Shown here piece after piece: positions 15,752 to 43,628 of a stretch of 64,000 bases of DNA. Within the stretch, counting starts at the first letter, position 1. Each line of letters opens with the position of its first letter. The stretch lies in NCBI GenBank assembly GCA_027063065.1, contig JAMOSO010000001.1, positions 1-64,000 on the forward strand, written 5' to 3'. The notes below the pieces were generated by a model that worked only from the letters and a program-made list of their open reading frames with translations, was not told the origin of the DNA and searched no databases. The stretch is from Planctomycetota bacterium (GTDB lineage Bacteria; Planctomycetota; JAMOSO01). A program made the position numbers and the translations under genes.

Positions 15752-16791
15752 TTAGAGAAACCATAAAAAAATTAGCTGGATATACACCTGGCGAACAACC
15801 TAATCCTGCAACGCATACCATTAAATTAAATACCAACGAAAACCCATACCCGCCCACTCCAGCAGTTAGCAATATTTTAAAAAATATACATCCAGATATT
15901 TTAAAAATATACCCACCTGCCGATGCTATAAGCGTGCGTGAAGCTACAGCTAAACTATTAAATATAAACCCTGAAGAAGTAATTGTTGGCAACGGTAGCG
16001 ATGACATTTTAACAATGGTACACCGATTAAGTTTAGAACAAGGGACAAACTCTTGTGCTATGGCTCCTACATATACTCTGTATAGAACACTGGCCAAATT
16101 ACAAGGGGCAGAACTTAATGAGCTAGATTTTGCACCTGATTATAAAATCAGTCAGGAGTTTTTACAAAACAATGCGCCTTTAAAATTATTACCAAACCCC
16201 AACGCGCCTACAGGAACTTTAATTAACAAAGAGGATATTAAAAAACTATGTGAACTTAGCCAAGGTATTGTAGTCATTGATGAAGCATATATCGACTTTG
16301 CTCCAGACAATGCCAGTGCTGTGGATTTAATTAATCAATATTCAAATTTATTAATTTGTCGCACCTTATCCAAATCATACTCATTAGCTGGGTTGCGTTT
16401 AGGCTTGGGTATTGCCAATGCAGAATTAATATCTCAAATGCATAAAATTAGAGATAGTTATAATGTAGATATTATATCGCAATTAATAGCAACAGAAGCT
16501 TTAAACGATAGCGCTTGGATGAAAACAAATGCTAAAAAAATTATAAAAACACGTATGTTTTTAGATGAAGAACTCACTAAAAGAAATTGGCAAACAATTA
16601 AATCGCACACAAATTTTATCTTCTGCCAACCACCCAAAAACATATCGGCCAACCTTGTATATAAGCACTTAAAAAGTCAAAATATTTTGGTTAGGCATTT
16701 TAAAGATAATAATATCAAAAATTTTATCCGTATTTCTATCGGCAGCGATGATGAATGTCGCAGTTTACTTACCGCCATAGATAGTCTATAA
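15748..16791 (+). CDS. hisC: Histidinol-phosphate aminotransferase
   Basis: A 347-residue fold-type I PLP enzyme of histidine biosynthesis. Markers: [11 protein letters not shown] at the N-terminus, [20 protein letters not shown] with the PLP-contacting Asp, and [15 protein letters not shown] with the Schiff-base Lys. HisC enzymes can also aminate phenylpyruvate-type acids. It overlaps the receiver gene by 4 bases and is followed 16 bases later by trpB, an unusual mix of regulatory and amino-acid genes. Confidence 0.92.
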
Positions 16792-24503: not shown

Positions 24504-25781
24504 ATGAGCACAAACACACCCAAAAACACACAAATATGGCTACCTTTTACTCAAATGAGTGAAATAACCAAAAATCCCCCTATCGAAATAAAAAAAGCTA
24601 AGGGCGCTTGGCTATACGACAATAATAACAACAAATATTTAGACGCAGTTGCATCTTGGTGGGTATCCGCGCTGGGGCATAACAATCCCAAAATTGCTAA
24701 AGCCATAGGCGAACAAGCCAAAAAATTAGATCAAGTTATTTTTGCAAATTGCACCCATACAGGCGCACAAGAAGTAGCCAAAAAAGTATTAAATTTGTTG
24801 CCAAATAAATTACAAAAAGTCTTTTTTAGCGACAATGGCTCCACTGCTGTAGAAGTGAGCTTAAAACTAGCTTTACAATATCATCATCAAACTGGCAACC
24901 CACAAAAAACTAAAATTATGTCATTAAATGATGCCTACCACGGAGACACCATAGGAGCTATGAGCGTAAGTGGCACCGAGCATTTTTTTGCACCCTACAA
25001 ACCAATGTTATTTAAATCGCCAAAAATTAAAAATTGGAATAAACTAGAACAAACAATCATTAAACACGCACACAAAACTGCTGCTATTATTGTTGAACCG
25101 CTAATTCAAGCGGCAGGCGGTATGAAAATTTATCACATAAAACACCTGCAACAATTAGCAAAATTATGCAAAAAACACAATGTTTTAGTCATATATGATG
25201 AAATAGCCACTGGCTTTGGCAGAACAGGCACAATGTTTGCCATGGATCAAATTGGCACCTCCAATTTATACGCTCCAGATATGGTATGCCTATCCAAAGG
25301 CTTAACAGGCGGAACAGTAGCCATGTCGATTACCGCTTGTAGCAATAAAATTTATAAAGCTTTTTTGGGGCCATACTCTGCTAATAAAACGTTTTTTCAT
25401 GGTCATTCGTATACCGCTAATCCAATAGCCTGTGCGGCTAGTATTGCCACATTAGACATATTTGCCAACCAAAATATAATAAAAAATATGCAAAAAAATA
25501 TGCAATACTTTAATGATTGCGCACAAAAATTTGCCAAAAATTTACCTTTAAAAAACTTTCGTGCCTTAGGCTGGGTAGCCGCTTGGGACATAGATGATGT
25601 ACGTAAATCACAAAAACAAAGATTAAGTCCTATAATCACAAAAACCGCACTCAAATACGGATTGCTAATTAGGCCATTAGGTAATGTGCTTTATTTTTGG
25701 CCACCAATTACATTAACTAAAACCGAAATTGATTTTATGTTTAACACCACAAAAAAAGTGTTAAACGAAATAATGATTTAA
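24504..25781 (+). CDS. bioA: Adenosylmethionine-8-amino-7-oxononanoate aminotransferase
   Basis: A 425-residue fold-type I aminotransferase of biotin synthesis, making 7,8-diaminopelargonate with SAM as amino donor. N-terminal WLPFTQM, then DAVASWWVSALGHNNP (the BioA-typical SWW), YHGDTIGAMSVSG, VIYDEIATGFGRTG and the PLP Lys in CLSKGLTGG. FHGHSYTANPIACAA also fits BioA (HG.T..GNP). No other biotin genes are close. Divergent from gap. Confidence 0.9.
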   Translation: MSTNTPKNTQIWLPFTQMSEITKNPPIEIKKAKGAWLYDNNNNKYLDAVASWWVSALGHNNPKIAKAIGEQAKKLDQVIFANCTHTGAQEVAKKVLNLLPNKLQKVFFSDNGSTAVEVSLKLALQYHHQTGNPQKTKIMSLNDAYHGDTIGAMSVSGTEHFFAPYKPMLFKSPKIKNWNKLEQTIIKHAHKTAAIIVEPLIQAAGGMKIYHIKHLQQLAKLCKKHNVLVIYDEIATGFGRTGTMFAMDQIGTSNLYAPDMVCLSKGLTGGTVAMSITACSNKIYKAFLGPYSANKTFFHGHSYTANPIACAASIATLDIFANQNIIKNMQKNMQYFNDCAQKFAKNLPLKNFRALGWVAAWDIDDVRKSQKQRLSPIITKTALKYGLLIRPLGNVLYFWPPITLTKTEIDFMFNTTKKVLNEIMI

Positions 25782-31810: not shown

Positions 31811-32434
31811 TTAATTAGTTTCACCTGGAGAGAAAAATTTATCCGCTCCAATCATTGTAGCATCTGTAGGTGCCGCACTAGATGCAGCAGAAGTATCTAT
31901 ATCTTCTTTAATATCAGTAACTTTTTTAACTGAAGCATCTGTTTTTAAGACATGAAAATATTCATTACCTTCACCCCAAAATGATGGATAATCAGAAATA
32001 TGAACTGTAGTTTTAATATTTACAGAAGCAGCTAAAGTTAAAGTATTTAATGCATAATTAGAATTGATGACTTTTGTAGGAGCTGTGACACTGTCTAACT
32101 CAGGAACTTTTAAAGCACCACGTTGAGGCGATTCAAAAGTTTTTACAGATAAGTTTTGATCATTCATTAAACATGCAAATGCTTGACCTACGCCATTGTC
32201 GCTAGCATCAACATTAGCTTTAGCCGCTTCTAAACCAGGAAACACATCTTTGTTATCCATAGTGTACATAGCCATTGAACTTGCCATTGCTTTAAGATTT
32301 GACATAGATTTAACAGCATTGGCTTTTTCTTTTGCCTTGCCAAGTGATGGCAATAACATTGAAGCCAAGATTGCGATAATCGAAATTACAACTAGCAATT
32401 CGATAAGGGTGAAGCCTTTTAGTAGTTTTTTCAT
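31811..32434 (-). CDS. Pilin-like protein, probable major pilin
   Basis: A 207-residue prepilin: leader MKKLLKG, FTLIELLVVISIIAILASMLLP, then SLGKAKEKANAVKSMSNLKAM. A conserved C-terminal segment YFHVLKTDASVKKV is shared with the next gene upstream, showing recent duplication. A very good ribosome site (AGGAGG, six bases before ATG), near-consensus promoter and strong terminator suggest it is abundantly made, unlike the pseudopilins at 0-1.6 kb. The leader and helix fit the large prepilin family common in Lentisphaerae and Planctomycetes. Confidence 0.85.
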   Translation of the reverse strand: MKKLLKGFTLIELLVVISIIAILASMLLPSLGKAKEKANAVKSMSNLKAMASSMAMYTMDNKDVFPGLEAAKANVDASDNGVGQAFACLMNDQNLSVKTFESPQRGALKVPELDSVTAPTKVINSNYALNTLTLAASVNIKTTVHISDYPSFWGEGNEYFHVLKTDASVKKVTDIKEDIDTSAASSAAPTDATMIGADKFFSPGETN

Positions 32435-32469
32435 ACTACCTCCTAAAAAAAAGAAAAAAGTGTAAATAA

Positions 32470-32498
32470 AACATATACCACATATCTGATATTGTCAA
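32470..32498 (-). promoter_or_regulatory. Promoter of first pilin gene
   Basis: Minus strand TTGACA (32493-32498), 17-base spacer, TATGTT (32470-32475), about 36 bases before the start. The spacer begins with ATATC-A-GATAT, a small palindrome that could bind a regulator. Confidence 0.6.
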
Positions 32499-32535
32499 TA
32501 CATAATTTAAAATATAGTATGCTCTATCGTACAAG

Positions 32536-33153
32536 TTAAGGCTGTGTTCCTTCTGTGGCAAATAATCCCGTGCCTATCAATAACGAATCTGACACCTTAT
32601 TAGTGCTTACACCTACGCCAATTTCATCCATATTTACAATTTTTTTTACAGAAGCATCGCTATATAAAGCATGAAAATAAGATGAGCCTGCTTCCCAAAA
32701 ACTAGGCCTGTCCATTATATGAATGGTAGTCGACAAATTTATCCCCTTAGATAATGTATTTGTATTAAATACATAACTAATATTAGTAATAGAAGTAATT
32801 GGATCATTACCAACAACTACGGGACGTTTTAAGCGTGCCTTTTGAGGACACTCTAATACATCATTGCTTAAATCTTGATCATTTAATAAAACCCTAAATG
32901 CATCATCCACATCTGAAGATGCTGTAGTATTAGCCTTAGCTGTAGTTAAACCAGGATAAATGTCATTATGATCCATTAAATACATAGATACTGCACTATC
33001 TAAAGCCTTTAAATTGGACATTGATTTGGATGCATTAGCCTTTTCTTTAGCTTTAGTCAAAGAAGGCAATAACATAGACGCCAAAATGGCAATGATAGAA
33101 ATCACCACCAACAACTCTATCAAAGTAAATTTTTTAATTAACAAACGTTTCAT
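32536..33153 (-). CDS. Pilin-like protein, paralogue of adjacent pilin
   Basis: A 205-residue prepilin with leader MKRLLIKK and FTLIELLVVISIIAILASMLLP. It is alignable along its length with the protein at 31811-32434: both have KAKEKANA.KSMSNLKA, a DN/DH-D-(V/I)-(F/Y)-PGL segment, LLNDQ/LMNDQ and (Y)FHxLxxDASVKK(I/V). The start at 33153 is chosen over 33183, which would add a non-leader decapeptide. It has its own promoter and lies 100 bases before the second pilin gene. Ribosome site weaker than that of its neighbour, so perhaps a less abundant pilin. Confidence 0.82.
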   Translation of the reverse strand: MKRLLIKKFTLIELLVVISIIAILASMLLPSLTKAKEKANASKSMSNLKALDSAVSMYLMDHNDIYPGLTTAKANTTASSDVDDAFRVLLNDQDLSNDVLECPQKARLKRPVVVGNDPITSITNISYVFNTNTLSKGINLSTTIHIMDRPSFWEAGSSYFHALYSDASVKKIVNMDEIGVGVSTNKVSDSLLIGTGLFATEGTQP

Positions 33154-33182
33154 ACCAACCACTAGTTTTAAAATCGGGCACA

Positions 33183-33210
33183 ACTATAATAAAAAATATT
33201 TCACATTCAA
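33183..33210 (-). promoter_or_regulatory. Promoter of second pilin gene
   Basis: Minus strand TTGAAT (33205-33210), 16-base spacer, TATAGT (33183-33188), about 30 bases before the start at 33153. Confidence 0.5.
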
Positions 33211-33306
33211 TTAAAAGTATAAATAAAAGTATTTAAATAGCAGTTGACAAATTTATATTCCACCTTAAATTAATACTGCTTTTAAAATCACTATTTGGAG
33301 AGGTCT

Positions 33307-34851
33307 ATGTTTGCAACTTTATGCGCTATTACATTACATGGGGTAGATGCTATCGAGGTGGCTGTTGAGCTTGACGCGAGCAATGGGATGCCTTCATTTC
33401 AAATTGGCGGATTAGGTGATTCTGCAATCAAAGAAAGCAAACAAAGGGTGATTTCTGCTATTAAAAATTCTGGATATAAAATACCACCCAGACGCATTAC
33501 AGTAAATTTAGCACCAGCAGATTTAAAAAAAGAAGGCACTTGCTATGATTTGGCCATTGCTATTGGATTATTAATAGCGACTAATCAGATTGAAATATTA
33601 ATAAAAGGCAAATTTTTGATATTAGGCGAATTGTCATTAGACGGTAAATTACGTCCAGTATCTGGTATTTTACCCGCAGCTATTATGGCTAAAAAACAAC
33701 AATATGATGGATTAATTCTGCCTAAAGAAAATCAATCTGAAGCAAGCGTTGTAGAAGATATCAAAATAATTGGAGTCAATAATTTGCTAGAAGCAATTAA
33801 ATTTTTATCTAATGAATTTATACCCAACACAACAGAAATACATAATATTATACCAAACAACGAAAACTACCCTGTAGATTTTAGTGATATTAAAGGACAA
33901 GAAGGTGTTAAACGTGCATTAACAATTGCAGCAGCTGGAGGGCATAATTTAATTTGTATAGGCCCTCCTGGATCAGGCAAAACAATGTCTGCTAGAGCCA
34001 TACCATCTATTTTGCCAAGCTTAAGTAAACCAGAAATGCTAGAAACCAGTAAAATTTATTCTGTGGCTGGATTACTACCCACTAATTATCCATTAATACA
34101 TACTAGGCCATTTAGAGCCCCACATCACTCAATATCAGAAGCCGGCCTAGTCGGTGGCGGTAGCAATCCTATGCCAGGAGAAGTAAGTTTGTCACATAAT
34201 GGCGTATTATTTTTAGATGAACTAACCGAATTTAATCTGCGTACATTAGAATCATTACGCCAACCGCTAGAAGATAAAAAAATTACCATATCAAGAGCTA
34301 AACGGACTGTAACATTTCCATCAAATACTATGCTATTAGCCGCCATGAATCCATGTCCTTGTGGTTTTTACGGTTCTAATTCCAATAGCTGTACCTGTAC
34401 AAGCAATCAAATACAAAAATATCTGAGTAAAGTATCAGGGCCTTTGCTTGATCGTATTGATATGCACATAGAAGCCCCTCCTGTAAACAAAACTGATTTA
34501 TTAAGCAATACTAAATCAGAAACATCGGCATCAATAAAAATTAAAGTAGAAAATGCCAGAAATGTGCAATTAAAACGATTTCAGAACCAATCTAATATGC
34601 AAATACATAGTTGTTATTCTAATTCGGATATGAATCCTCGTCAAATTAAACAATTTTGCTTATTAAATACACAAAATACTAAATTAATGGAAAAAATGTT
34701 TGATAATTTAAACTTTTCGGCGCGTTCATACAATAAAGTCTTAAAAATAGCACGTACTATAGCCGATTTAGACGATTCAAAAAATATAGAACAAAATCAT
34801 TTATTAGAAGCCATTCAATATAGAACTCTAGACAGAAAATATTGGGGTTAA
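33307..34851 (+). CDS. comM: ComM/YifB-type AAA+ ATPase (Mg-chelatase-like)
   Basis: A 514-residue protein. N-terminal Lon-like fold domain (about 1-170: GVDAIEVAVELDASNGMPSF, IPPRRITVNLAPADLKKEG), Walker A GPPGSGKTMSARAIPSI, Walker B GVLFLDELTEF, sensor AAMNPCPCGFYG, and the CxC-type zinc-like cluster CPCG...CTCT typical of the family. ComM is a helicase that promotes branch migration during integration of transformed DNA. The start is ATG 33307 with GGAGAGG upstream rather than the TTG at 33295. It fits with comEC and pilins as a competence set and is next to the putative origin. Confidence 0.9.
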   Translation: MFATLCAITLHGVDAIEVAVELDASNGMPSFQIGGLGDSAIKESKQRVISAIKNSGYKIPPRRITVNLAPADLKKEGTCYDLAIAIGLLIATNQIEILIKGKFLILGELSLDGKLRPVSGILPAAIMAKKQQYDGLILPKENQSEASVVEDIKIIGVNNLLEAIKFLSNEFIPNTTEIHNIIPNNENYPVDFSDIKGQEGVKRALTIAAAGGHNLICIGPPGSGKTMSARAIPSILPSLSKPEMLETSKIYSVAGLLPTNYPLIHTRPFRAPHHSISEAGLVGGGSNPMPGEVSLSHNGVLFLDELTEFNLRTLESLRQPLEDKKITISRAKRTVTFPSNTMLLAAMNPCPCGFYGSNSNSCTCTSNQIQKYLSKVSGPLLDRIDMHIEAPPVNKTDLLSNTKSETSASIKIKVENARNVQLKRFQNQSNMQIHSCYSNSDMNPRQIKQFCLLNTQNTKLMEKMFDNLNFSARSYNKVLKIARTIADLDDSKNIEQNHLLEAIQYRTLDRKYWG

Positions 34852-35239
34852 CAATATTCAATCTAAAAAGTCTTTAATTAGTACGAAATAATCCCATTAT
34901 AGCCTAAAAAAATAAATTTATAGTTATACACCGCCTATCAATCCAAATTATCGGCAAAAATACTTGACCTAAGCGATTTATCTGATTTAATCATCAGACG
35001 AGATTGATTGACTGCCAAAATTGTATTGTAAAAAAACCGATTTAAACGATGGGTTTTACCGATGATTAAGATTTAATTACAAGATGTTTATGATTGAGTT
35101 TTACTTTGTAATAATACTTAAATTCAATAATGGCAATAGTTTATCAAAAATCAATGAAATATATCAGCGTTCCTGTTATAGTAATAGTATTAGTAGTTAA
35201 AAGAGGTAATAGTAACTATTCTTTTTTTATAAAATAAAT
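34852..35239. other. Candidate replication origin region upstream of initiator gene
   Basis: A 388-bp AT-rich gene-free stretch. Contents: TCTGAT/ATCAGA inverted repeat (34981-34998); GATTTA at 34975, 34984, 35039 and 35071; ACCGAT at 35036-35041 and 35058-35063 (22 bp apart) with a related AACGAT at 35045-35050; AAAACC/GGTTTT inverted repeat around 35033-35056; GTAATAGTA at 35181-35189 and 35206-35214 (25 bp apart); and AATAGT-A-ACTATT at 35208-35220. I saw no TTATNCACA DnaA box. The base-composition switch of the window falls around here. Short iteron-like repeats next to a RepA-type gene are typical of plasmid origins. Function is inferred. Confidence 0.5.
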
Positions 35240-37078
35240 ATGAATAAAAAACAATTAACATTTATGGATAATATTAATACTAATGGCCGTAAAGAGCCAT
35301 TAACTATTATTAAAGCTAATAATTTAGAAAATAGCACTATAACTTTTGATGAAATTTTACTAGGTCAAACTTCGATTGTAGCTCCGGAAGGCGCTGTACT
35401 TGAAAGACGTGTCAATCCTGATACATCACAAGAATATTTAGTTAAACGATTTAACCATGTAGTTGGAACACATAATGGTGATTTAAGATCAGTTGAAATA
35501 GAAATAGAAACACTACCCAGTCAGGGCTTAACAGACTATTTTGATGATAAAGTATTATTAACTCTACATTCTTTAGCTTTAGAAAAAGACTCTTATGAGT
35601 ATTACACAAATATTTCAGAAATTTGCGCCGCTAGAGATTGGCCTTTAAATGGTGAATATATTGCTAAAGTACGCAAAAGCTTAGAAAAACTAGAAGGTAC
35701 TTCTATTGCCAGTGATCAATTTGTTGATCCTGATACTAACGAATCAATTAAACAAAGAATAAATTTATTATCTCGTTATGTGCGTTTTAAAGACGAACAG
35801 CGTTCAACATCAATCAAAAAAGACGGTATTTTATATGATGATGAAATTAAATTTAAAAAAGATTTTTTAATTGAGATAAATCAATTTTTTTTTAAGAGTT
35901 TGCAAAAACAAAAAATAAAACTTGATATTAAGGTTTTAAATTCATTTAGAAATAAAACAGTTGAAAAATTATATCGCTTTTTAAATACAATGTTTCAATT
36001 AAAATCAGAAATTGAAATAAATCTAACAGATTTATGTGAAACTTTAGGCATTACTGTGCCTAAGTATATTTCTAATATAAAACGTAATATTTATGTACGT
36101 TATATCAAAGAAATAGAAAAAAATAATATAATCAAACCTTTTGATATTAAAACTAATTATTATAAACATAATAAAATTTGGCGTGTGAAATTTGAACGTG
36201 GTGAATTTTACGAGTCTCTTGAAGATAGATGGGCAATGAAACCAGCTTTATTTAATATTTTTAATTATTTGCACGCCGAATTAAAATTTAAAAAACATGA
36301 AGCTCATACTTTGATGGGTAAATATGCCAATGAGCTTATTCAAGAAAATATCAATTATTTGCGTTTATCATTAGAAATTACTCCAAATGTGATTAGATAT
36401 CCAAAAGCTTGGATGAAAAAATCATTAGAAAACAATTGGGATCATAGTTTAAATTTACAAATCTTAAGAGAGTTAAAACACAGTAAAACACCATTAACAC
36501 AATATCAGCAATCTTGGGAAAAACGTGATTTTAATGAAGAAGAAAAACAAGCATTTGAACGTTGTACTATTAAATTTAAAATACCAGAAAACATAGTTAT
36601 TCCTTGGATTAAAACCCATGCTAATTTTGATTATATCAAACAATTAGATAAGGTTTTTGATTTATTAAAACCTGAAGAACAAAAATATGATTATTTAGCT
36701 ACTATGATTAGACATCGAGACTCCAGAGTTTGGCGTATAACAATACCTGGCAGTGAGCAAGAACAAGTTGCCAATCGTATACAAAAACAGAAATATCAAT
36801 CTTTGTTTGCTAATGAAATTGTAATTGAACCAGATGACATAGAAACATCAGATAATATCACACCTGTCGCCCCTCCTATGCCCAATATATTAAATTTAAT
36901 GGACGCCTTAAAACAACATTTAGGAGAAGAATATAATAAATTGTTTAATGAAACATATATGGCTGCGGAACCTGTTTTAGTTTTAGGTGGCATTGATAGC
37001 CCAGAGGCAATTAGAGATGCAATTTTAATTCAGATGCAGAAAACATATTTGCCAAATTTTATTACGCAAAATGATTAA
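35240..37078 (+). CDS. RepA/RPA-type replication initiator protein
   Basis: A 612-residue protein resembling the replication initiator protein A family of plasmids. About residues 45-175 form a first winged-helix region: an N-terminal sheet segment, TDYFDDKVLLTLHSLALEKD, and YIAKVRKSLEKLEGTSI, the usual helix before the small-gene repeats. About 180-325 form a second winged helix (VEKLYRFLNTMFQLKSEIEI, DLCETLGI). A C-terminal region has HEAHTLMGKYANELIQ and RYPKAWMKKSLENNW, matching the family's NPaGwLvkAi-like end. The rest (about 420-612) is not recognised. No ribosome site is seen; TATAAA ends six bases before the ATG, so the message may be leaderless. It overlaps the next gene by 8 bases. 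Confidence 0.62.
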   Translation: MNKKQLTFMDNINTNGRKEPLTIIKANNLENSTITFDEILLGQTSIVAPEGAVLERRVNPDTSQEYLVKRFNHVVGTHNGDLRSVEIEIETLPSQGLTDYFDDKVLLTLHSLALEKDSYEYYTNISEICAARDWPLNGEYIAKVRKSLEKLEGTSIASDQFVDPDTNESIKQRINLLSRYVRFKDEQRSTSIKKDGILYDDEIKFKKDFLIEINQFFFKSLQKQKIKLDIKVLNSFRNKTVEKLYRFLNTMFQLKSEIEINLTDLCETLGITVPKYISNIKRNIYVRYIKEIEKNNIIKPFDIKTNYYKHNKIWRVKFERGEFYESLEDRWAMKPALFNIFNYLHAELKFKKHEAHTLMGKYANELIQENINYLRLSLEITPNVIRYPKAWMKKSLENNWDHSLNLQILRELKHSKTPLTQYQQSWEKRDFNEEEKQAFERCTIKFKIPENIVIPWIKTHANFDYIKQLDKVFDLLKPEEQKYDYLATMIRHRDSRVWRITIPGSEQEQVANRIQKQKYQSLFANEIVIEPDDIETSDNITPVAPPMPNILNLMDALKQHLGEEYNKLFNETYMAAEPVLVLGGIDSPEAIRDAILIQMQKTYLPNFITQND

Positions 37079-38198
37079 ACGGGTTGGTATTTTTAGCTCA
37101 ACAAGAGCTGATTATAGTTATTTGAAACCTGTTGCCAAAGCTTTGCAACAATTAAAAATAAAAGTGGTTTTTTTTATTACTGGATTACATTTACGTCAAG
37201 ATCGAGGCAATAGTATTAAATATATCCAATCAGATGGTTTTGTTTTTTATACTATTACCAATCAGTTGCATACTGATGAGGCAATTAATCAAGCTGGTAT
37301 AAATGGCGATATATTAAAACAATTGCCGATGTTATTGTCAGAAAAGAAAATACAATTTCTTTTATTATTAGGTGATAGAAGCGAAATATTAACCGCGGCT
37401 TTATCGGCTATGCACATTAATGTTGCCATTGGACATATCCATGGTGGTGATTTGTCTTATGGAGGCGGTATTGATGATAGTATTCGTCATGCCGTTACAA
37501 AGTTAGCTCATGTGCATTTTCCTGCTAGTAACGATAGTGCTAGACGTTTATTGAGGTTGCAAGAAGCACCATGGAGGATTATAAAAGCAGGTGAAACAAG
37601 TTTAGAAAATATTAAGCAATCTGATAATACATTTTTACAACGGTTTAATTTACCTCAACCCTATGCCGTATTATTGCAACACGGCGAGGCATTACAGGCT
37701 GATAAGTCTGTAGAGCAGTTTAAAAGTGTATATACTGCCCTGTGTAGTTTTGATTTACATAAGGTTGTGATTTTGCCTAATGATGATCCTGGTGCAAAAA
37801 AAATGATTGCATTTATAAAAAGTCAATCCAAGACATCTGCAACAACCGTTTTTAACACCCTTGCCACCGCCGATTTTTTTGATTTACTTAAAAATAGTAA
37901 ATTTTTAATTGGCAATAGTTCTTCGGCTATAATTGAAGCACCCTATTTGGGCGTGCCAGCCATTAATTTAGGTATTCGCCAACAAGGGCGTAAAACTTAT
38001 GTGTCTACATTACACGGTGATTTTAACACAGCAAATATAGTTGAGCTTATTGCCGAGGTTTTGACAAATAGGCACAAGCTTAAAACTCGTGCTGTTGCCA
38101 AACGTTTATCTAATCGACCATTGGCAAGTAAAATTATTGCTCAACATATTAAAAGTTTACGATTAGATAAATCGTTTTTTCAAAAAGTTATGTCTTAA
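37071..38198 (+). CDS. NeuC-like UDP-N-acetylglucosamine 2-epimerase (hydrolysing)
   Basis: A 375-residue GT-B-fold enzyme. GIFSSTRADYSYL, LGDRSEILTAAL, IGHIHGGDLSYG and IDDSIRHAVTKLAHVHF match NeuC/NnaA enzymes, which convert UDP-GlcNAc (or diacetyl analogue) to ManNAc-type sugar and UDP for nonulosonic acid (sialic, legionaminic, pseudaminic) synthesis. IGNSSSAIIEAPYLGVPAINLG is the conserved UDP site. No neuA/neuB is adjacent. Nonulosonates decorate flagellins and polysaccharides, both made in this window. Its start is inside the initiator gene (8-base overlap), an odd coupling of functions. Confidence 0.82.
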   Translation: MIKRVGIFSSTRADYSYLKPVAKALQQLKIKVVFFITGLHLRQDRGNSIKYIQSDGFVFYTITNQLHTDEAINQAGINGDILKQLPMLLSEKKIQFLLLLGDRSEILTAALSAMHINVAIGHIHGGDLSYGGGIDDSIRHAVTKLAHVHFPASNDSARRLLRLQEAPWRIIKAGETSLENIKQSDNTFLQRFNLPQPYAVLLQHGEALQADKSVEQFKSVYTALCSFDLHKVVILPNDDPGAKKMIAFIKSQSKTSATTVFNTLATADFFDLLKNSKFLIGNSSSAIIEAPYLGVPAINLGIRQQGRKTYVSTLHGDFNTANIVELIAEVLTNRHKLKTRAVAKRLSNRPLASKIIAQHIKSLRLDKSFFQKVMS

Positions 38199-38874
38199 TT
38201 AAATAATCTAAAATTTGATTCATTATTATATTTAATTGCTGATAATCTTTGGCGTTAGCATTTAAGATTTGTGCTTTGCTTTGGATATATGGGTTGTCAA
38301 TTAATTCATTAGCACAGTGTTGGCATATATCACTAGCTGAAGTTGGTGTCGTCTCTAAGTGAAATTGTAAGGCAATAATTGATGATGAAATTTGAAATGC
38401 CTGATTTTTGCAGATATGACTACTAGCTAATAGAGTGGCGTTTGTAGGTAAATCAAATGTTTCGCCATGCCAATGAAATGCTTGAAAATTTTCAGGAAAT
38501 TGAAAAGCAGTTGTTTTGTGTGGGTGGGCAGTTACAGGAAACCAACCAATTTCTTTGTATTGACCTTGATATACATTTGCTTTCATCACGTTAGCTATTA
38601 ATTGAGCTCCTAAACAAACCCCTAAAATAATTTTATTTTTTTTAATAGCGTTCAATATAAATTGTTTTTCTTCTTTGAGCCATGGATAATCGGTTTCGTC
38701 ATAAATACTCATGGGTCCACCCATAATTATTAAAAAGTCAACATCGTCTAAATTTGGCAATTTTTGATTGTTATAAAGATGGGTATAGCTAATGCTATGC
38801 CCGTCTTTATTTAAATAATTTTCAATACTGCCAAGTCCCTCAAAGGCTATATGTTTTAAGCAATGTACACGCAT
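38188..38874 (-). CDS. Class I glutamine amidotransferase-like protein
   Basis: A 228-residue stand-alone amidotransferase domain with nucleophile Cys in ILGVCLGAQLIA, and His/Glu partners in ALQFHLETTP. LIIMGGPMSIYDE and AFHWHGETFDLP are typical of GMP synthase-like amidotransferases of uncharacterised substrate (YfeJ group). It converges with and overlaps the NeuC-like gene by 11 bases and follows the SPFH gene by one base. Confidence 0.85.
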   Translation of the reverse strand: MRVHCLKHIAFEGLGSIENYLNKDGHSISYTHLYNNQKLPNLDDVDFLIIMGGPMSIYDETDYPWLKEEKQFILNAIKKNKIILGVCLGAQLIANVMKANVYQGQYKEIGWFPVTAHPHKTTAFQFPENFQAFHWHGETFDLPTNATLLASSHICKNQAFQISSSIIALQFHLETTPTSASDICQHCANELIDNPYIQSKAQILNANAKDYQQLNIIMNQILDYLIKT

Positions 38875-38875
38875 A

Positions 38876-39805
38876 TTATTTATTATTCATATTCCAAAGG
38901 ATGTTTTGCCCCTGTCCCATCATGGTTTTGGGCAGTTGACCGTTCCATCTTTGTGCACGGATATAATCTACCAATGTTTTTGATTGTTGTAGTGCTTGGG
39001 CTTTTTTGCGCATTGCTTCGGCTTCGGCAGCGCCTTTTAGTTTGATTGCTTCGGCTTCGGCAATGGCTTCTATTTTGATGGAATAAGCTTTGCCGTCTGC
39101 AGTTGCCATGGTTGCTTCGCGTTTGGCGTTAGCTGTATTTACAGCACGTTGTGCTTCTAGTTTTTGACGTTCTAGGCGATGCATTTCAGCTGCGGCAAGG
39201 TTTTTTTCAGTTTGTTTGGTTTCGATAGATTGAATATATTTTTGTGGCAGTCCTAAATCCTCAAGTTGGGCAGAATCAAGTTTGACGGGATAATCTGCCA
39301 TTGCCTGTTGTAGCTCTTCCTCTATTTGTGTAATTACTTTGTTTCTGTTTTGTATGATTTCTTCTGCTTTATAATGAGCCAAAGCATCTTTGGCAGCAGA
39401 GCGTAATTTAGGGTCTAAAATTCTAGTTTCAAATTGATCTAATCCTCCATAGCTTTTAAATAATTCAAATGCTAAATCTCGTTGAACAGTCCAGTTAATA
39501 GACACTTTGGCTGTGATAGGCATTTGTTCGTGAGTGGATGCGCTTAGTTTTTCTAAATTTTTACGTGTTCTAATTTCTAAAATCACTACAGAGTCAACTA
39601 AAGGGATTTTCATATGTAGCCCGGGGTTTACTTGTTTGGTTGCTTCTCCAAATCTTTTGACAATACCCACATGCCCTTCTTGCACAGTGAATAAACTTTG
39701 GAAGATTAAAATTGCCAGTATGATAATTATTAAAAAGCTAATAGACGCGCCTTTGCCTTTATGGGCTATCACTTGAAAATCAGGCATATTATTTTGAACA
39801 GTCAT
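38876..39805 (-). CDS. SPFH/prohibitin-family membrane protein
   Basis: A 309-residue protein with one N-terminal transmembrane helix (about residues 23-42), then the SPFH domain (VQEGHVGIVKRFGEATKQVNPGLHMKIPLVDSV) and a long coiled coil rich in Ala/Glu/Lys. This layout fits HflC/prohibitin-type proteins that form cages or microdomains around membrane proteases. Start 39805 has AAGGAG upstream; the longer frame from 39886 is not supported. Translated into the amidotransferase gene with a one-base gap. Confidence 0.88.
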   Translation of the reverse strand: MTVQNNMPDFQVIAHKGKGASISFLIIIILAILIFQSLFTVQEGHVGIVKRFGEATKQVNPGLHMKIPLVDSVVILEIRTRKNLEKLSASTHEQMPITAKVSINWTVQRDLAFELFKSYGGLDQFETRILDPKLRSAAKDALAHYKAEEIIQNRNKVITQIEEELQQAMADYPVKLDSAQLEDLGLPQKYIQSIETKQTEKNLAAAEMHRLERQKLEAQRAVNTANAKREATMATADGKAYSIKIEAIAEAEAIKLKGAAEAEAMRKKAQALQQSKTLVDYIRAQRWNGQLPKTMMGQGQNILWNMNNK

Positions 39806-40042
39806 TTGTTTCTCCTTAAAAAAATTTTGTCTTAGATTACAGCTTTGCAAGCTTAATGCAAGGTGCATTCGGTACGGGTAAAGCAAGCCCTGTTTGATAT
39901 GACGTAAGTTTGCTCTTGAGGTTAGTTGGGTATTTTAATCGATACAAATAGTAGTTGGATGTAAACTTGAAACTTTAAAAAACAGTATAAGATAGAGTAT
40001 GGCTGTTGTTTAAAGTTATTTGGTTTTGCAATTAAGGTTATA

Positions 40043-40058
40043 GTCCAACGCGTTGGAC
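40043..40058. repeat. Palindrome GTCCAACGCGTTGGAC, copy 1
   Basis: A perfect 16-bp palindrome, repeated exactly at 40081-40096. The two copies flank the parS core. Possibly an operator for parA or a second ParB-type site. Confidence 0.85.
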
Positions 40059-40063
40059 AGTGG

Positions 40064-40077
40064 GTTTCACGTGAAAC
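40064..40077. promoter_or_regulatory. parS centromere core GTTTCACGTGAAAC
   Basis: A perfect 14-bp match to the core of the bacterial chromosomal parS consensus TGTTTCACGTGAAACA; the flanking bases are G and T instead of T and A. ParB binds such sites and slides on CTP-driven clamps; ParA then separates the origins. It sits 61 bases before parA. Confidence 0.9.
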
Positions 40078-40080
40078 TTT

Positions 40081-40096
40081 GTCCAACGCGTTGGAC
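40081..40096. repeat. Palindrome GTCCAACGCGTTGGAC, copy 2
   Basis: Second exact copy of the 16-bp palindrome, immediately upstream of the parA promoter (-35 at 40103). Its centre is 18 bp from the parS centre; copy 1's centre is 20 bp on the other side. Confidence 0.85.
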
Positions 40097-40102
40097 TAAA
40101 GT

Positions 40103-40131
40103 TTGCATGTTGCCGAGCTTGAGCTTATAAT
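40103..40131 (+). promoter_or_regulatory. parA promoter, leaderless
   Basis: TTGCAT (40103-40108), 17-base spacer, consensus TATAAT (40126-40131). The parA ATG starts at 40139, eight bases after the -10, the expected transcription start. No ribosome site precedes it. Confidence 0.6.
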
Positions 40132-40138
40132 CTTAAAT

Positions 40139-40957
40139 ATGTATTCTAAAAAAATAACGTTTATTAATCAAAAAGGTGGTGTAGGTAAAACTACATTATG
40201 TGTTAATGTTGCCGCTGATTTAGCTATGCGTAATTATAAGGTTTTATTGGTTGATACTGATCCGCAAGCTAATGCTACTACTGTTGTGCATGAAGCTCCA
40301 GAAGGGGCGCCAACTATTGCAGATGTGATGTTGGGTGATGTGAGTGCTGCCGATGCGGTGGTAACTGCACGCAAAAACTTAGATTTATTACCTTCTGGTG
40401 AAAATATGTGGAATTATTCATTTCAGGTAGTGCAACAAAATTTAGGTGATTTGCTAGGCCGTTTTCGTGAGGTTATTGATTCGGTTGATAAAGATTATGA
40501 TTTTATTATTTTTGATACAAATCCATATCCTGCTACTTTATGTATATTGGCTTTGGCTTTTTCTCAGCATAGTATTACGCCAATGTTTCCAGAGCCTTTT
40601 GCATGGGATGGGTATTCGACTTTATCGGGTTTAATTAATGATATTCGCAAGGATTTTAATCCAGACATACAACCTTTGGGTATCGTGGTAAATAACTTTA
40701 ATGGATCAAAAAATATACATAAGGAAGTTTGCATGGCATTGTTTGAATCTGTTCCAGATGAAGTTTTTAAATCGGTCATTAGAACAAATAGTAACTTATG
40801 TAAGATGGGAAATGAATTAAAAACTATTTTCGAAATAGAGTCTCCCAGCGGTAAAGGAAATAAGGATTTTTCGGCTTTGACGGATGAAATGTTAGATAAA
40901 CTGTGTATGCCGATACGTAAAATGGATGATGATATAATTAAAGCCCTGCAAAATTAG
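40139..40957 (+). CDS. parA: ParA chromosome/plasmid partition ATPase
   Basis: A 272-residue deviant-Walker ATPase. [14 protein letters not shown] is the Walker A with signature Lys; [13 protein letters not shown] and [10 protein letters not shown] follow. Length is typical of chromosomal (type Ib/Soj-like) ParA without an N-terminal HTH. FDTNPYP replaces the usual DTPP. The ATG at 40139 is chosen over the TTG at 40103, which overlaps the -35. Pairs with parB downstream and parS upstream. Confidence 0.93.
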
Positions 40958-40965
40958 GAGGTTTA

Positions 40966-41844
40966 GTGGCTGATTTTTCTGAAATAACCAAACAATTTAA
41001 AGAGAGTCAATCAGGCAAAAACAAACCAGCTCAGGGGCGTATTGCCGCTAAAGTGGCAAAGTTTAAACAGGATAAAATTGCTTCTGAATTTAAATTGGTT
41101 GAACTTAGTTCTATTGCACCCGATCCTAATCAGCCTAGGCGTATTAAGGATACCAAGAGTCGTGATTTAAAGTCCTTAGCTAAAACAATTAAAGAAAAAG
41201 GTGTTTTAGAACCTTTGCTTGTGCGTGAAACAGCAACAGGGTTTTTGTTAGTAGCTGGTGAAAGGCGTTATTGGGCTAGCCATATAGCTAAATTACGTGC
41301 TGTGCCTGTTAGGGTTGTGCATCTTAATAGCCAAGAAATAGCCGAGGTACAATTAATTGAAAATATTCAGCGTAAGGATTTAAATCCATTAGAGCGTGCG
41401 AGAGGGTTAAAAAATATTGCCGATTCTGGAGGTAGCACAAAAGATATTTATAAACGAGTAGCAATTTCTCGCTCTTTATATTATGCGTTACTTTCTTTAT
41501 TAAATTTACCAGAAGAAATACAGGATAAAATAGATCAAAGCTATGCTAACGAAAATGAGGGTATACCCCTTAGAGAATTAATTGAATTGGCAAAGATTAA
41601 AGACATTAATAAATTAAAATCAGCTTTTGAAGATTTAGATAGTGGCACTAGTTTAATAGAAGAACGACAAAAAAATAATCCTAAAGCATCAACTATTGCT
41701 AAAAATAAAGTTAAAGATTTTCAAAGAGTCTCTAATAAACAAGGGGTTGAAATATTATTGCGTATTCCAGCAGAGATGAAACCAAATGAGCTAGATTTAG
41801 AAGATATTGATGCGTTGTGGCAAGAGGTGTTAAATAAATTATGA
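40966..41844 (+). CDS. parB: ParB partition protein
   Basis: A 292-residue ParB. GTG start with AGGAGG five bases upstream, overlapping the parA stop. N-terminal CTPase domain: LSSIAPDPNQPRR, LVAGERRYWASH and ENIQRKDLNPLERA. The HTH follows (KDIYKRVAISRSLYYALLSL). The GERR motif continues as YWASH rather than the common WRAA. A C-terminal dimer domain is short. parA and parB form one operon with the yej genes following directly. Confidence 0.93.
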   Translation: MADFSEITKQFKESQSGKNKPAQGRIAAKVAKFKQDKIASEFKLVELSSIAPDPNQPRRIKDTKSRDLKSLAKTIKEKGVLEPLLVRETATGFLLVAGERRYWASHIAKLRAVPVRVVHLNSQEIAEVQLIENIQRKDLNPLERARGLKNIADSGGSTKDIYKRVAISRSLYYALLSLLNLPEEIQDKIDQSYANENEGIPLRELIELAKIKDINKLKSAFEDLDSGTSLIEERQKNNPKASTIAKNKVKDFQRVSNKQGVEILLRIPAEMKPNELDLEDIDALWQEVLNKL

Positions 41845-43628
41845 TTATAAAATGGTGTAAAAATATTAAATCTTTAATTGTTTTGTTGCTAATAAGTAAC
41901 GTGGCACTGGCACAAGATTTTCCTAGTAAAAACTGGCATGAATCAGTTGATGAACTTGCGTCAACAAATGCAATAAAGGGGGGGGCTTTATCGATATTTG
42001 CAGGTCAAAGTCCAAAAAGTTTTAATTATTATTTAGATACTAATTCATTGACGGCACAAATTTTTGGTTTTATGTTTGAAACTCTCTTAGGTGCTAACTC
42101 TGTTACTATGCACGATGAACCAAATATTGCATCTAAATGGCAAATAAGCCCTGATAAGCTTACTTTTAAGTTTTGGATTGACCCCGCCGCAAAGTGGAGT
42201 GATGGACAACCCATTACTGCTAGTGATGTATTATTTACTTATGATACTATCTTAAATCCAAAAAATATGACAGGCCCACATAAGGTTGGCTTGGAAAGGT
42301 TTAAAAGGCCAGTAATTATCAATGATAGTCAGATTGTCTTTACAGCAAAAACTATTCATTGGTCAAACTTATCAGTATTAGGTGGTTTACAAATTTTGCC
42401 CAAGCATATATTGGCAAATAAGGATTTTAATAAAATTAATTTTGAGTTTCCCGTAGTGTCTGGCCCTTATAAATTGGGCACACATAATGAAACCATTAGT
42501 TTAACGATGGAACGTAATCAACAGTGGTGGGCTCAAAACAAAATGAGTAATCGTTATAAATATAATTTTGATAAATTGATATTTAAATTTTATGCTGATC
42601 GCAATAATGCTTTTGAAGCTTTTAAGAAGGGTGATATCGACTTATTTGCTGTATATACAGCAAAGCGTTGGGTTAAAGATGCTGTCGGCAAGAGTTTTGA
42701 TAAAAATTGGATTATAAAACAACGCATATATAATTTTAAACCAGTTGGGTTTCAGGGCTTTGCAATGAATATGCGTAGAGAACCGTTTAATAATTTAAAG
42801 CTTAGAAAGGCTTTGTCTTTGTTGTTAAATCGTGAAAAGATGAATACACAATTGATGTATTCGCAATATTTTATGTTAAATTCTTATTATCCTGATATTT
42901 ATGATTTGAAACATAAAAATTCCAACAAAAAAATCGTCTTTAATAAAAGTTTGGCGAGAAAATTATTAAAAGAAGCTGGTTGGGTGGTTAATCCAGCGAC
43001 TGGATTACAAGAAAAGGACAAAAAGCCTTTAGTGATTAAGTTTTTAACTAGAGACGCCAGTGCCAATCGTTTTTTAGCGATTTATCGGGAGGACTTAGCC
43101 GATGTTGGTATCCAATTAAAAATTATTCAAAAGGATTGGGCTTCATGGGCTAAAGATATGGATTCATATAATTTTGATATGACTTGGGCTGCTTGGGGGG
43201 CGGGTATTCGTAAAAATCCCGAGGCAATGTGGCATTCTAAAGAAATTAATCGTCCGTCTGGCATTAATATTACTGGGTTTAAAAATACGCAAGTAGATAC
43301 GTTAATTAATAAACAAATGGGTATTTTTGATATGGATAAGCGTCATGAAATTTGTCGTCAAATAGATAAAATAGTATATTCGCAATATCCTTATGCGTTA
43401 CTTTGGATGAATAGTTATACGCGGTTATTGTATTGGAACAAATTTGGCACTCCTAAAACTGTTTTAAGTAAATATGGCGGTGAATCATCAGCGTATGTTT
43501 ATTGGTGGTTTGATGAAGATAATTTATTAGATTTAAAAGATGCTCAAGCAGATGATGAGGCTTTACCAGATATGCCTTTGGATGTGGTGTTTCCAATGTG
43601 CGCTAAAGATACGCTTAGCAATCGTTAG
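41841..43628 (+). CDS. yejA: Peptide ABC transporter substrate-binding protein (YejA-like)
   Basis: A 595-residue family 5 solute-binding protein. Signal peptide (about 1-24, ending ALA-QDF). Markers: SFNYYLDTNSLTAQIFGFMFETL, WSDGQPITASDVLFTYDTI, GFAMNMRREPFNNLKLRKALSLLLNREKMN and WAAWGAGIRKNPEAMW. In E. coli YejA belongs to an oligopeptide/microcin C uptake system. Its ATG overlaps the parB stop (ATGA), an unusual coupling of partition and transport genes. Confidence 0.85.
   Translation: MIIKWCKNIKSLIVLLLISNVALAQDFPSKNWHESVDELASTNAIKGGALSIFAGQSPKSFNYYLDTNSLTAQIFGFMFETLLGANSVTMHDEPNIASKWQISPDKLTFKFWIDPAAKWSDGQPITASDVLFTYDTILNPKNMTGPHKVGLERFKRPVIINDSQIVFTAKTIHWSNLSVLGGLQILPKHILANKDFNKINFEFPVVSGPYKLGTHNETISLTMERNQQWWAQNKMSNRYKYNFDKLIFKFYADRNNAFEAFKKGDIDLFAVYTAKRWVKDAVGKSFDKNWIIKQRIYNFKPVGFQGFAMNMRREPFNNLKLRKALSLLLNREKMNTQLMYSQYFMLNSYYPDIYDLKHKNSNKKIVFNKSLARKLLKEAGWVVNPATGLQEKDKKPLVIKFLTRDASANRFLAIYREDLADVGIQLKIIQKDWASWAKDMDSYNFDMTWAAWGAGIRKNPEAMWHSKEINRPSGINITGFKNTQVDTLINKQMGIFDMDKRHEICRQIDKIVYSQYPYALLWMNSYTRLLYWNKFGTPKTVLSKYGGESSAYVYWWFDEDNLLDLKDAQADDEALPDMPLDVVFPMCAKDTLSNR

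Follow-up and report, generated by a model that had tools for sequence, protein, structure and literature searches.

What does an abrupt change in strand composition mean at a place where the neighbouring gene resembles a plasmid replication initiator? The window analysed here is a stretch of 64,000 nucleotides (C1:1-64000) from a 77,219-bp contig, C1, and hence not a whole chromosome; the draft genome to which it belongs totals 2,130,164 bp in 71 contigs and is 90% complete and 0.2% contaminated. From the window alone, a preliminary description had placed an origin at 33-37 kb, with a plasmid-type initiator and no dnaA, and had raised the possibility that this was the only origin of its chromosome. 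Here we find that the origin-type locus is real, and that it lies in an unusual multi-origin genome.

A strand-composition switch at 35-40 kb

Across the window, cumulative GC skew starts at 0, declines to one clear minimum of -1639 at position 34,995, within the 388-bp gap between comM and the gene for a 612-aa RPA-like protein, and rises afterwards. Cumulative AT skew has its maximum at 37,163. Both values were computed on the window, and the GC minimum bears out the expectation of a skew minimum at 33-37 kb. The five base counts sampled in the preliminary description were likewise exact (16141-16200, C13/G6; 24541-24600, C13/G5; 34081-34140, C16/G5; 43141-43200, G18/C7; 53581-53640, G14/C7), and the 388-bp intergenic region (34852-35239) and the RepA/RPA-like gene of 612 residues are present as it described them. 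Because skew differs between genes of the two strands, the switch was retested using GC skew at 4-fold degenerate codon sites, where G makes up 52% of G+C in leading-strand genes and 24% in lagging genes. By this strand-corrected measure, C1 is in the left state up to 38.2 kb and in the right state beyond it, and a model with a switch improves on one without by 178.9 log-likelihood units (118 after division by 1.5 for overdispersion), so that the proposed origin-type change from C- to G-excess holds after correction.

The best-fit switch point is at 38.19 kb, the 3' end of a UDP-GlcNAc 2-epimerase family gene. Relative to it, the 388-bp gap (35.0 kb) is worse by 2.6 overdispersion-scaled units, which counts against the gap, and the start of parA is worse by 4.0. 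Since these three positions differ by only a few units, the switch is placed only to about 35-40 kb. Within this interval we favour the gap as the origin, a choice and not a proof, because the raw minimum lies there and because the switches on contig C48 and at the C12/C7 join (see below) fall in the gap upstream of the RPA gene.

Skew flips may also be produced by inverted segments, by gene-strand effects or by joins in the assembly, with no origin involved. Raw skew can indeed mislead in this genome: it was dropped as a sole test after a false minimum at 19 kb in C27 proved to be a gene-strand artefact, and an apparent terminus at 11.3 kb on C3 was discarded because it reflects the distinct codon bias of a ribosomal-protein operon. 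The C1 flip, however, persists after strand correction with more than 30 genes on either side, and recurs at the RPA paralogs, which makes an explanation without an origin very improbable. The C-rich codon bias of the C3 operon on its coding strand mimics a skew flip and is, in itself, a caution for skew methods.

Organization of the locus

The features of the interval are listed in Table 1. Three cargo genes separate the RPA-like gene from parS and parAB. The RPA gene is oriented towards parAB, 3 kb away, whereas the layout on C48 is divergent, a difference that counts against our preferred explanation. Directly to the left of comM, at 31811-33183, are two tandem, mutually similar type IV pilin-like genes with a FTLIELLVVISIIAILASMLLPSL start.

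Table 1 Features between 33 and 42 kb of the window.
Feature	Coordinates	Strand	Evidence or remark
comM-like Mg-chelatase/ChlI family AAA+ protein	33295..34851	+	Pfam Mg_chelatase, E 4.5e-92; left neighbour of gap
AT-rich intergenic region, 388 bp, prime origin candidate	34852..35239		raw GC-skew minimum
Predicted RPA/RctB-like replication initiator, 612 aa	35240..37078	+	Pfam RPA, paralogs, model match
UDP-GlcNAc 2-epimerase family gene	37071..38198	+	Pfam Epimerase_2, E 2.8e-53
Class I glutamine amidotransferase (cargo, in initiator-parAB interval)	38188..38874	-	Pfam GATase, E 8.5e-21
SPFH/Band 7 protein (cargo)	38876..39886	-	Pfam Band_7, E 1.7e-36
16-bp palindrome GTCCAACGCGTTGGAC, left of parS	40043..40058
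parS core GTTTCACGTGAAAC	40064..40077		perfect match
16-bp palindrome GTCCAACGCGTTGGAC, second copy, right of parS	40081..40096
parA	40103..40957	+	Pfam AAA_31, E 7.9e-42; start at 40103 or later ATG
parB	40966..41844	+	Pfam ParB_N, E 1.1e-20; TIGR00180 above cut-off

No DnaA box with one mismatch or fewer was found in the gap, and a single box with one mismatch lies at 35263, inside the RPA gene. Nor does the gap contain clear iterons, which again counts against our preferred explanation. Repeats are present at two of the other RPA loci: the 652-bp gap upstream of the RPA gene on C7 has six ATTCTAAA/TTTAGAAT repeats, and on C26 TTAGAACA is repeated three times. Across the origins, no DnaA-box cluster was detected except for three one-mismatch boxes at the parA start on C48.

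The window also contains a ParABS system, with ParA, ParB and parS together at 40.0-41.8 kb and the parS core in a sole copy where chance would give 0. A parABS set adjoins two of the RPA loci, on C1 and C48, and each parS has its own flanking palindromes; the C48 site lies in a 1.6-kb gap, and its palindrome differs from that of C1. The third parAB set, with a canonical parS, is split across C27 and C35 and lies some 50 kb away from a switch near dnaN (see below), bringing the distinct sets in the genome to three. The system resembles chromosomal ParABS in its ParA, ParB and conserved parS core, and differs from it in the three sets per genome and in the palindromes added around the sites on C1, C48 and C12. 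On C12, a parS-like GTTTCACATGAAAC with one mismatch adjoins GTCCAACGTCGTTGGAC; the gap that holds them measures 1.9 kb and is some 5 kb away from the C12/C7 origin.

A putative initiator with similarities to RPA and RctB

The HMM search proposed in the preliminary description did match the 612-residue protein to Pfam RPA (PF10134; E 0.0025, 17.8 bits), but below the cut-off of 27, which its C48 paralog approaches as a protein (26.7 bits) and exceeds in the genome search (28.7 bits). A profile search of PDB sequences with the RPA-like protein gave no match. RctB is the initiator of Vibrio chromosome 2. In two AlphaFold models of low confidence (mean pLDDT 56 and 57), domains 2-3 of RctB were the sole PDB match to reach significance, with E 1.6e-7 and 7.1e-6; both models were built on alignments of the same four sequences and are thus not independent tests. 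VIA-align returned a Z of 9.2 over 162 residues for RctB and of about 6 for RepE54. The Pfam profile that defines RctB initiators (PF11826; PMC8826520) was not matched, as scans to E 1 for the window protein and to E 0.1 for the paralogs yielded only RPA and chance matches. We suggest that the protein may work like RctB, and we do not class it as RctB because model confidence is low and the diagnostic profile is unmatched.

Its N-terminal QLTF resembles a beta-clamp binding motif, of the kind that occurs in initiators such as TrfA. Only four of 1574 ORFs contain a Q[LM][ST]F motif, and three of these four are RPA paralogs.

Among the closest known systems, the RctB/ori2 system of Vibrio chromosome 2, also found on the Plesiomonas shigelloides chromid, offers several parallels: an initiator of about 610-670 aa, a modelled fold similarity to RctB domains 2-3 that spans some 160 residues, a contiguous arrangement of initiator, origin gap and parAB (as on C48, with the RPA gene, 1.6-kb gap, parS and divergent parAB), and a replicon that carries core genes. 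The differences are the low identity (~11-15%), the other phylum, the lack of a Pfam RctB-domain match, the four paralogs per genome and, in the window, genes that are not divergent and are without established iterons. Plasmid initiators of the RPA family (PF10134) match the N-terminal part, with the C48 paralog at the cut-off in the genome search, whereas the window protein scores under the cut-off, is longer, and is encoded on a contig with core genes. The second-best fold match is to RepE/RepE54 of plasmid F and thus to Rep_3-type iteron initiators, with a winged helix and a Z of 5-6 over ~100 residues, but this match is weaker than that of RctB and the proteins are much shorter.

Origin-type switches recur at RPA paralogs

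The skew scan read 1.98 Mb, of which ~75 kb (C50 and C16) were masked, so that ~1.90 of 2.13 Mb were analysed; further origins may lie in the gaps. The window protein has three paralogs in the genome (26-30% identity in a first alignment), and all four RPA genes are at origin-like places, namely two internal switches, one switch at a contig join and one contig-first gene, a coincidence with a roughly estimated chance probability of 5e-6. Both internal left-to-right switches found in the ~1.90 Mb are at RPA genes, on C1 and on C48, where the switch falls in the 1.6-kb gap between the RPA gene and parAB. The starts of C7 and C12 overlap by 184 bp, and once joined they pass from left to right state at the C7 RPA gene. 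C26, a right-state contig, opens with its RPA gene, the opposite side being missing. A fifth left-to-right switch is located at the end of C27, beside dnaN, rpmF, plsX and fabF, with neither an RPA gene nor a DnaA-box cluster, and may be the ancestral DnaA-type oriC.

Four terminus-type switches were detected, on C24, C39, C54 and C41, of which the last three are weak on their own contig and continue in joined contigs. A search for dif sites, by consensus and for a sequence common to the termini, found nothing convincing. Contig ends overlap by 80-480 bp at ~99% identity, and many are joinable though the assembler kept them apart, which suggests strain variation in the sample. The C3-C48 and C13-C48 joins were dropped, as the contig ends involved converge on one sequence.

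The window has no dnaA, in agreement with the preliminary description, but the genome search recovered a full-length gene on C44, whose 470-aa product has DnaA domains I, III and IV and scores above the TIGR00362 cut-off. Its surroundings, running into C3 through a 165-bp overlap, are entirely left-state for a minimum of about 31 kb on one side and 76 kb on the other, and dnaA is thus away from every skew switch found in the ~1.90 Mb analysed. DnaA is also used at some plasmid-type origins, and with a full-length DnaA available the locus on C1 could be a genuine origin started by DnaA, with the RPA gene a nearby relic. The lack of DnaA boxes with up to one mismatch in the gap and the position of dnaA deep within one skew state both argue against this, and it would be unlikely for relics that all four RPA genes should lie at origin-like places; we consider this reading improbable.

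These observations also bear on the suggestion of a sole origin on a chromosome without dnaA. The place and the initiator type were correctly identified, an origin-type switch with an RPA-like gene to which parABS can now be added, and the absence of dnaA from the window gave the suggestion its basis. It is nonetheless contradicted within one genome by dnaA itself, by no fewer than three additional RPA origin loci and by the dnaN-proximal switch, unless the bin is mixed; with contamination at 0.2%, we give it almost no credence.

Probably one replicon among several

Core genes identified with NCBIfam are present on every RPA-type contig: C1 encodes ObgE, L21, GAPDH, TrpB, FabH and HisC; C48 carries rpsB, tsf, frr, eno, ffh, prfA and ligA; C26 carries secA; and C7 carries a B12-dependent ribonucleotide reductase and aat. 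The NCBIfam search also located dnaK on C35. These core genes indicate that the RPA contigs are not simple accessory plasmids. The GC content of C1 is 33.1%, with other sampled contigs mostly at 31-37%, so C1, a contig of a 71-contig draft, combines three features of a candidate chromid: a plasmid-type initiator, core genes and a main-chromosome-like composition.

Taken together, the ~five origin-type places and the retained dnaA suggest either that this small genome is divided among several chromosomes or that a single chromosome has many origins. We think it likely that the 35-40 kb interval is the origin and centromere of one replicon with an RPA/RctB-like initiator, in a multipartite genome of ~five replicons. 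The main rival is a single chromosome with several active origins, into which RPA-type/parABS plasmids fused and in which each still fires, comparable to the fused Agrobacterium chromosomes or to multi-origin cyanobacteria. Core genes on all RPA contigs and their similar GC content would fit such a chromosome, and there are precedents, both in natural dicentric fusions in which the two origins fire and both partition systems are essential (PMC12153318) and in cyanobacterial chromosomes with multiple origins (PMC7198777). Three distinct parAB sets and origin-specific palindromes better fit separately segregated molecules, and fusions need dimer resolution, for which no dif was found, itself a weak argument. 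The negative dif search and the low pLDDT of the models also count against the multipartite reading. Several parAB sets thus suggest several molecules, the known two-origin fusions still leave room for one, and overall we judge a single chromosome to be rather unlikely.

For the multipartite reading, the following scheme can be proposed. The RPA-like protein, with its modelled RctB winged-helix fold, would bind beside its own gene at the 388-bp gap, open the AT-rich DNA and load the replisome, including helicase and clamp, after which two forks would depart in opposite directions. ParA and ParB, acting on the palindrome-flanked parS, would segregate the copies, and the three RPA paralogs would act likewise at the other origins. 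The genome would be divided into separate molecules, with core genes on the RPA-type replicons.

According to a review, chromids described so far have repABC origins in alphaproteobacteria or iteron origins in beta- and gammaproteobacteria (PMC6090056). If true, a small genome from another, deep lineage in which four RctB-like origins occur together with core genes would be a further and extreme case. On balance, we slightly favour a ~2.1-2.3 Mb genome of ~five replicons, four of them driven by RctB-like initiators and carrying rpsB-tsf-frr, rplU-obgE and secA, and one retaining the canonical parABS and an origin close to dnaN; were all of this a single molecule, it would be a natural bacterial chromosome with ~five origins. 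Such a genome would open the questions of how several origins are jointly timed, how core genes leave a DnaA-driven chromosome, and whether DnaA continues to be needed.

Relatives in other genomes

Full-length relatives of the RPA protein were found in none of 391 other genomes of the phylum, with partial matches in 7, and the searches run against plasmids, phages, viral contigs and GTDB contigs returned no relatives. A search with SecA gave a best hit of only 41% identity and was uninformative as to the lineage. Weak RPA relatives in four finished genomes from the phylum (G306, G298, G068 and G104) were rejected as further cases, as they lie off any clear flip. G017, another low-GC genome of the phylum, encodes DnaA as well, along with two RPA-like genes, one of them at G017:C72:271016. 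The other, a 557-aa RPA relative (G017:C34:97650-99323), sits at a left- to right-state flip in 4-fold skew with a 0.9-kb gap upstream, a possible second case of an RPA gene at a skew flip.
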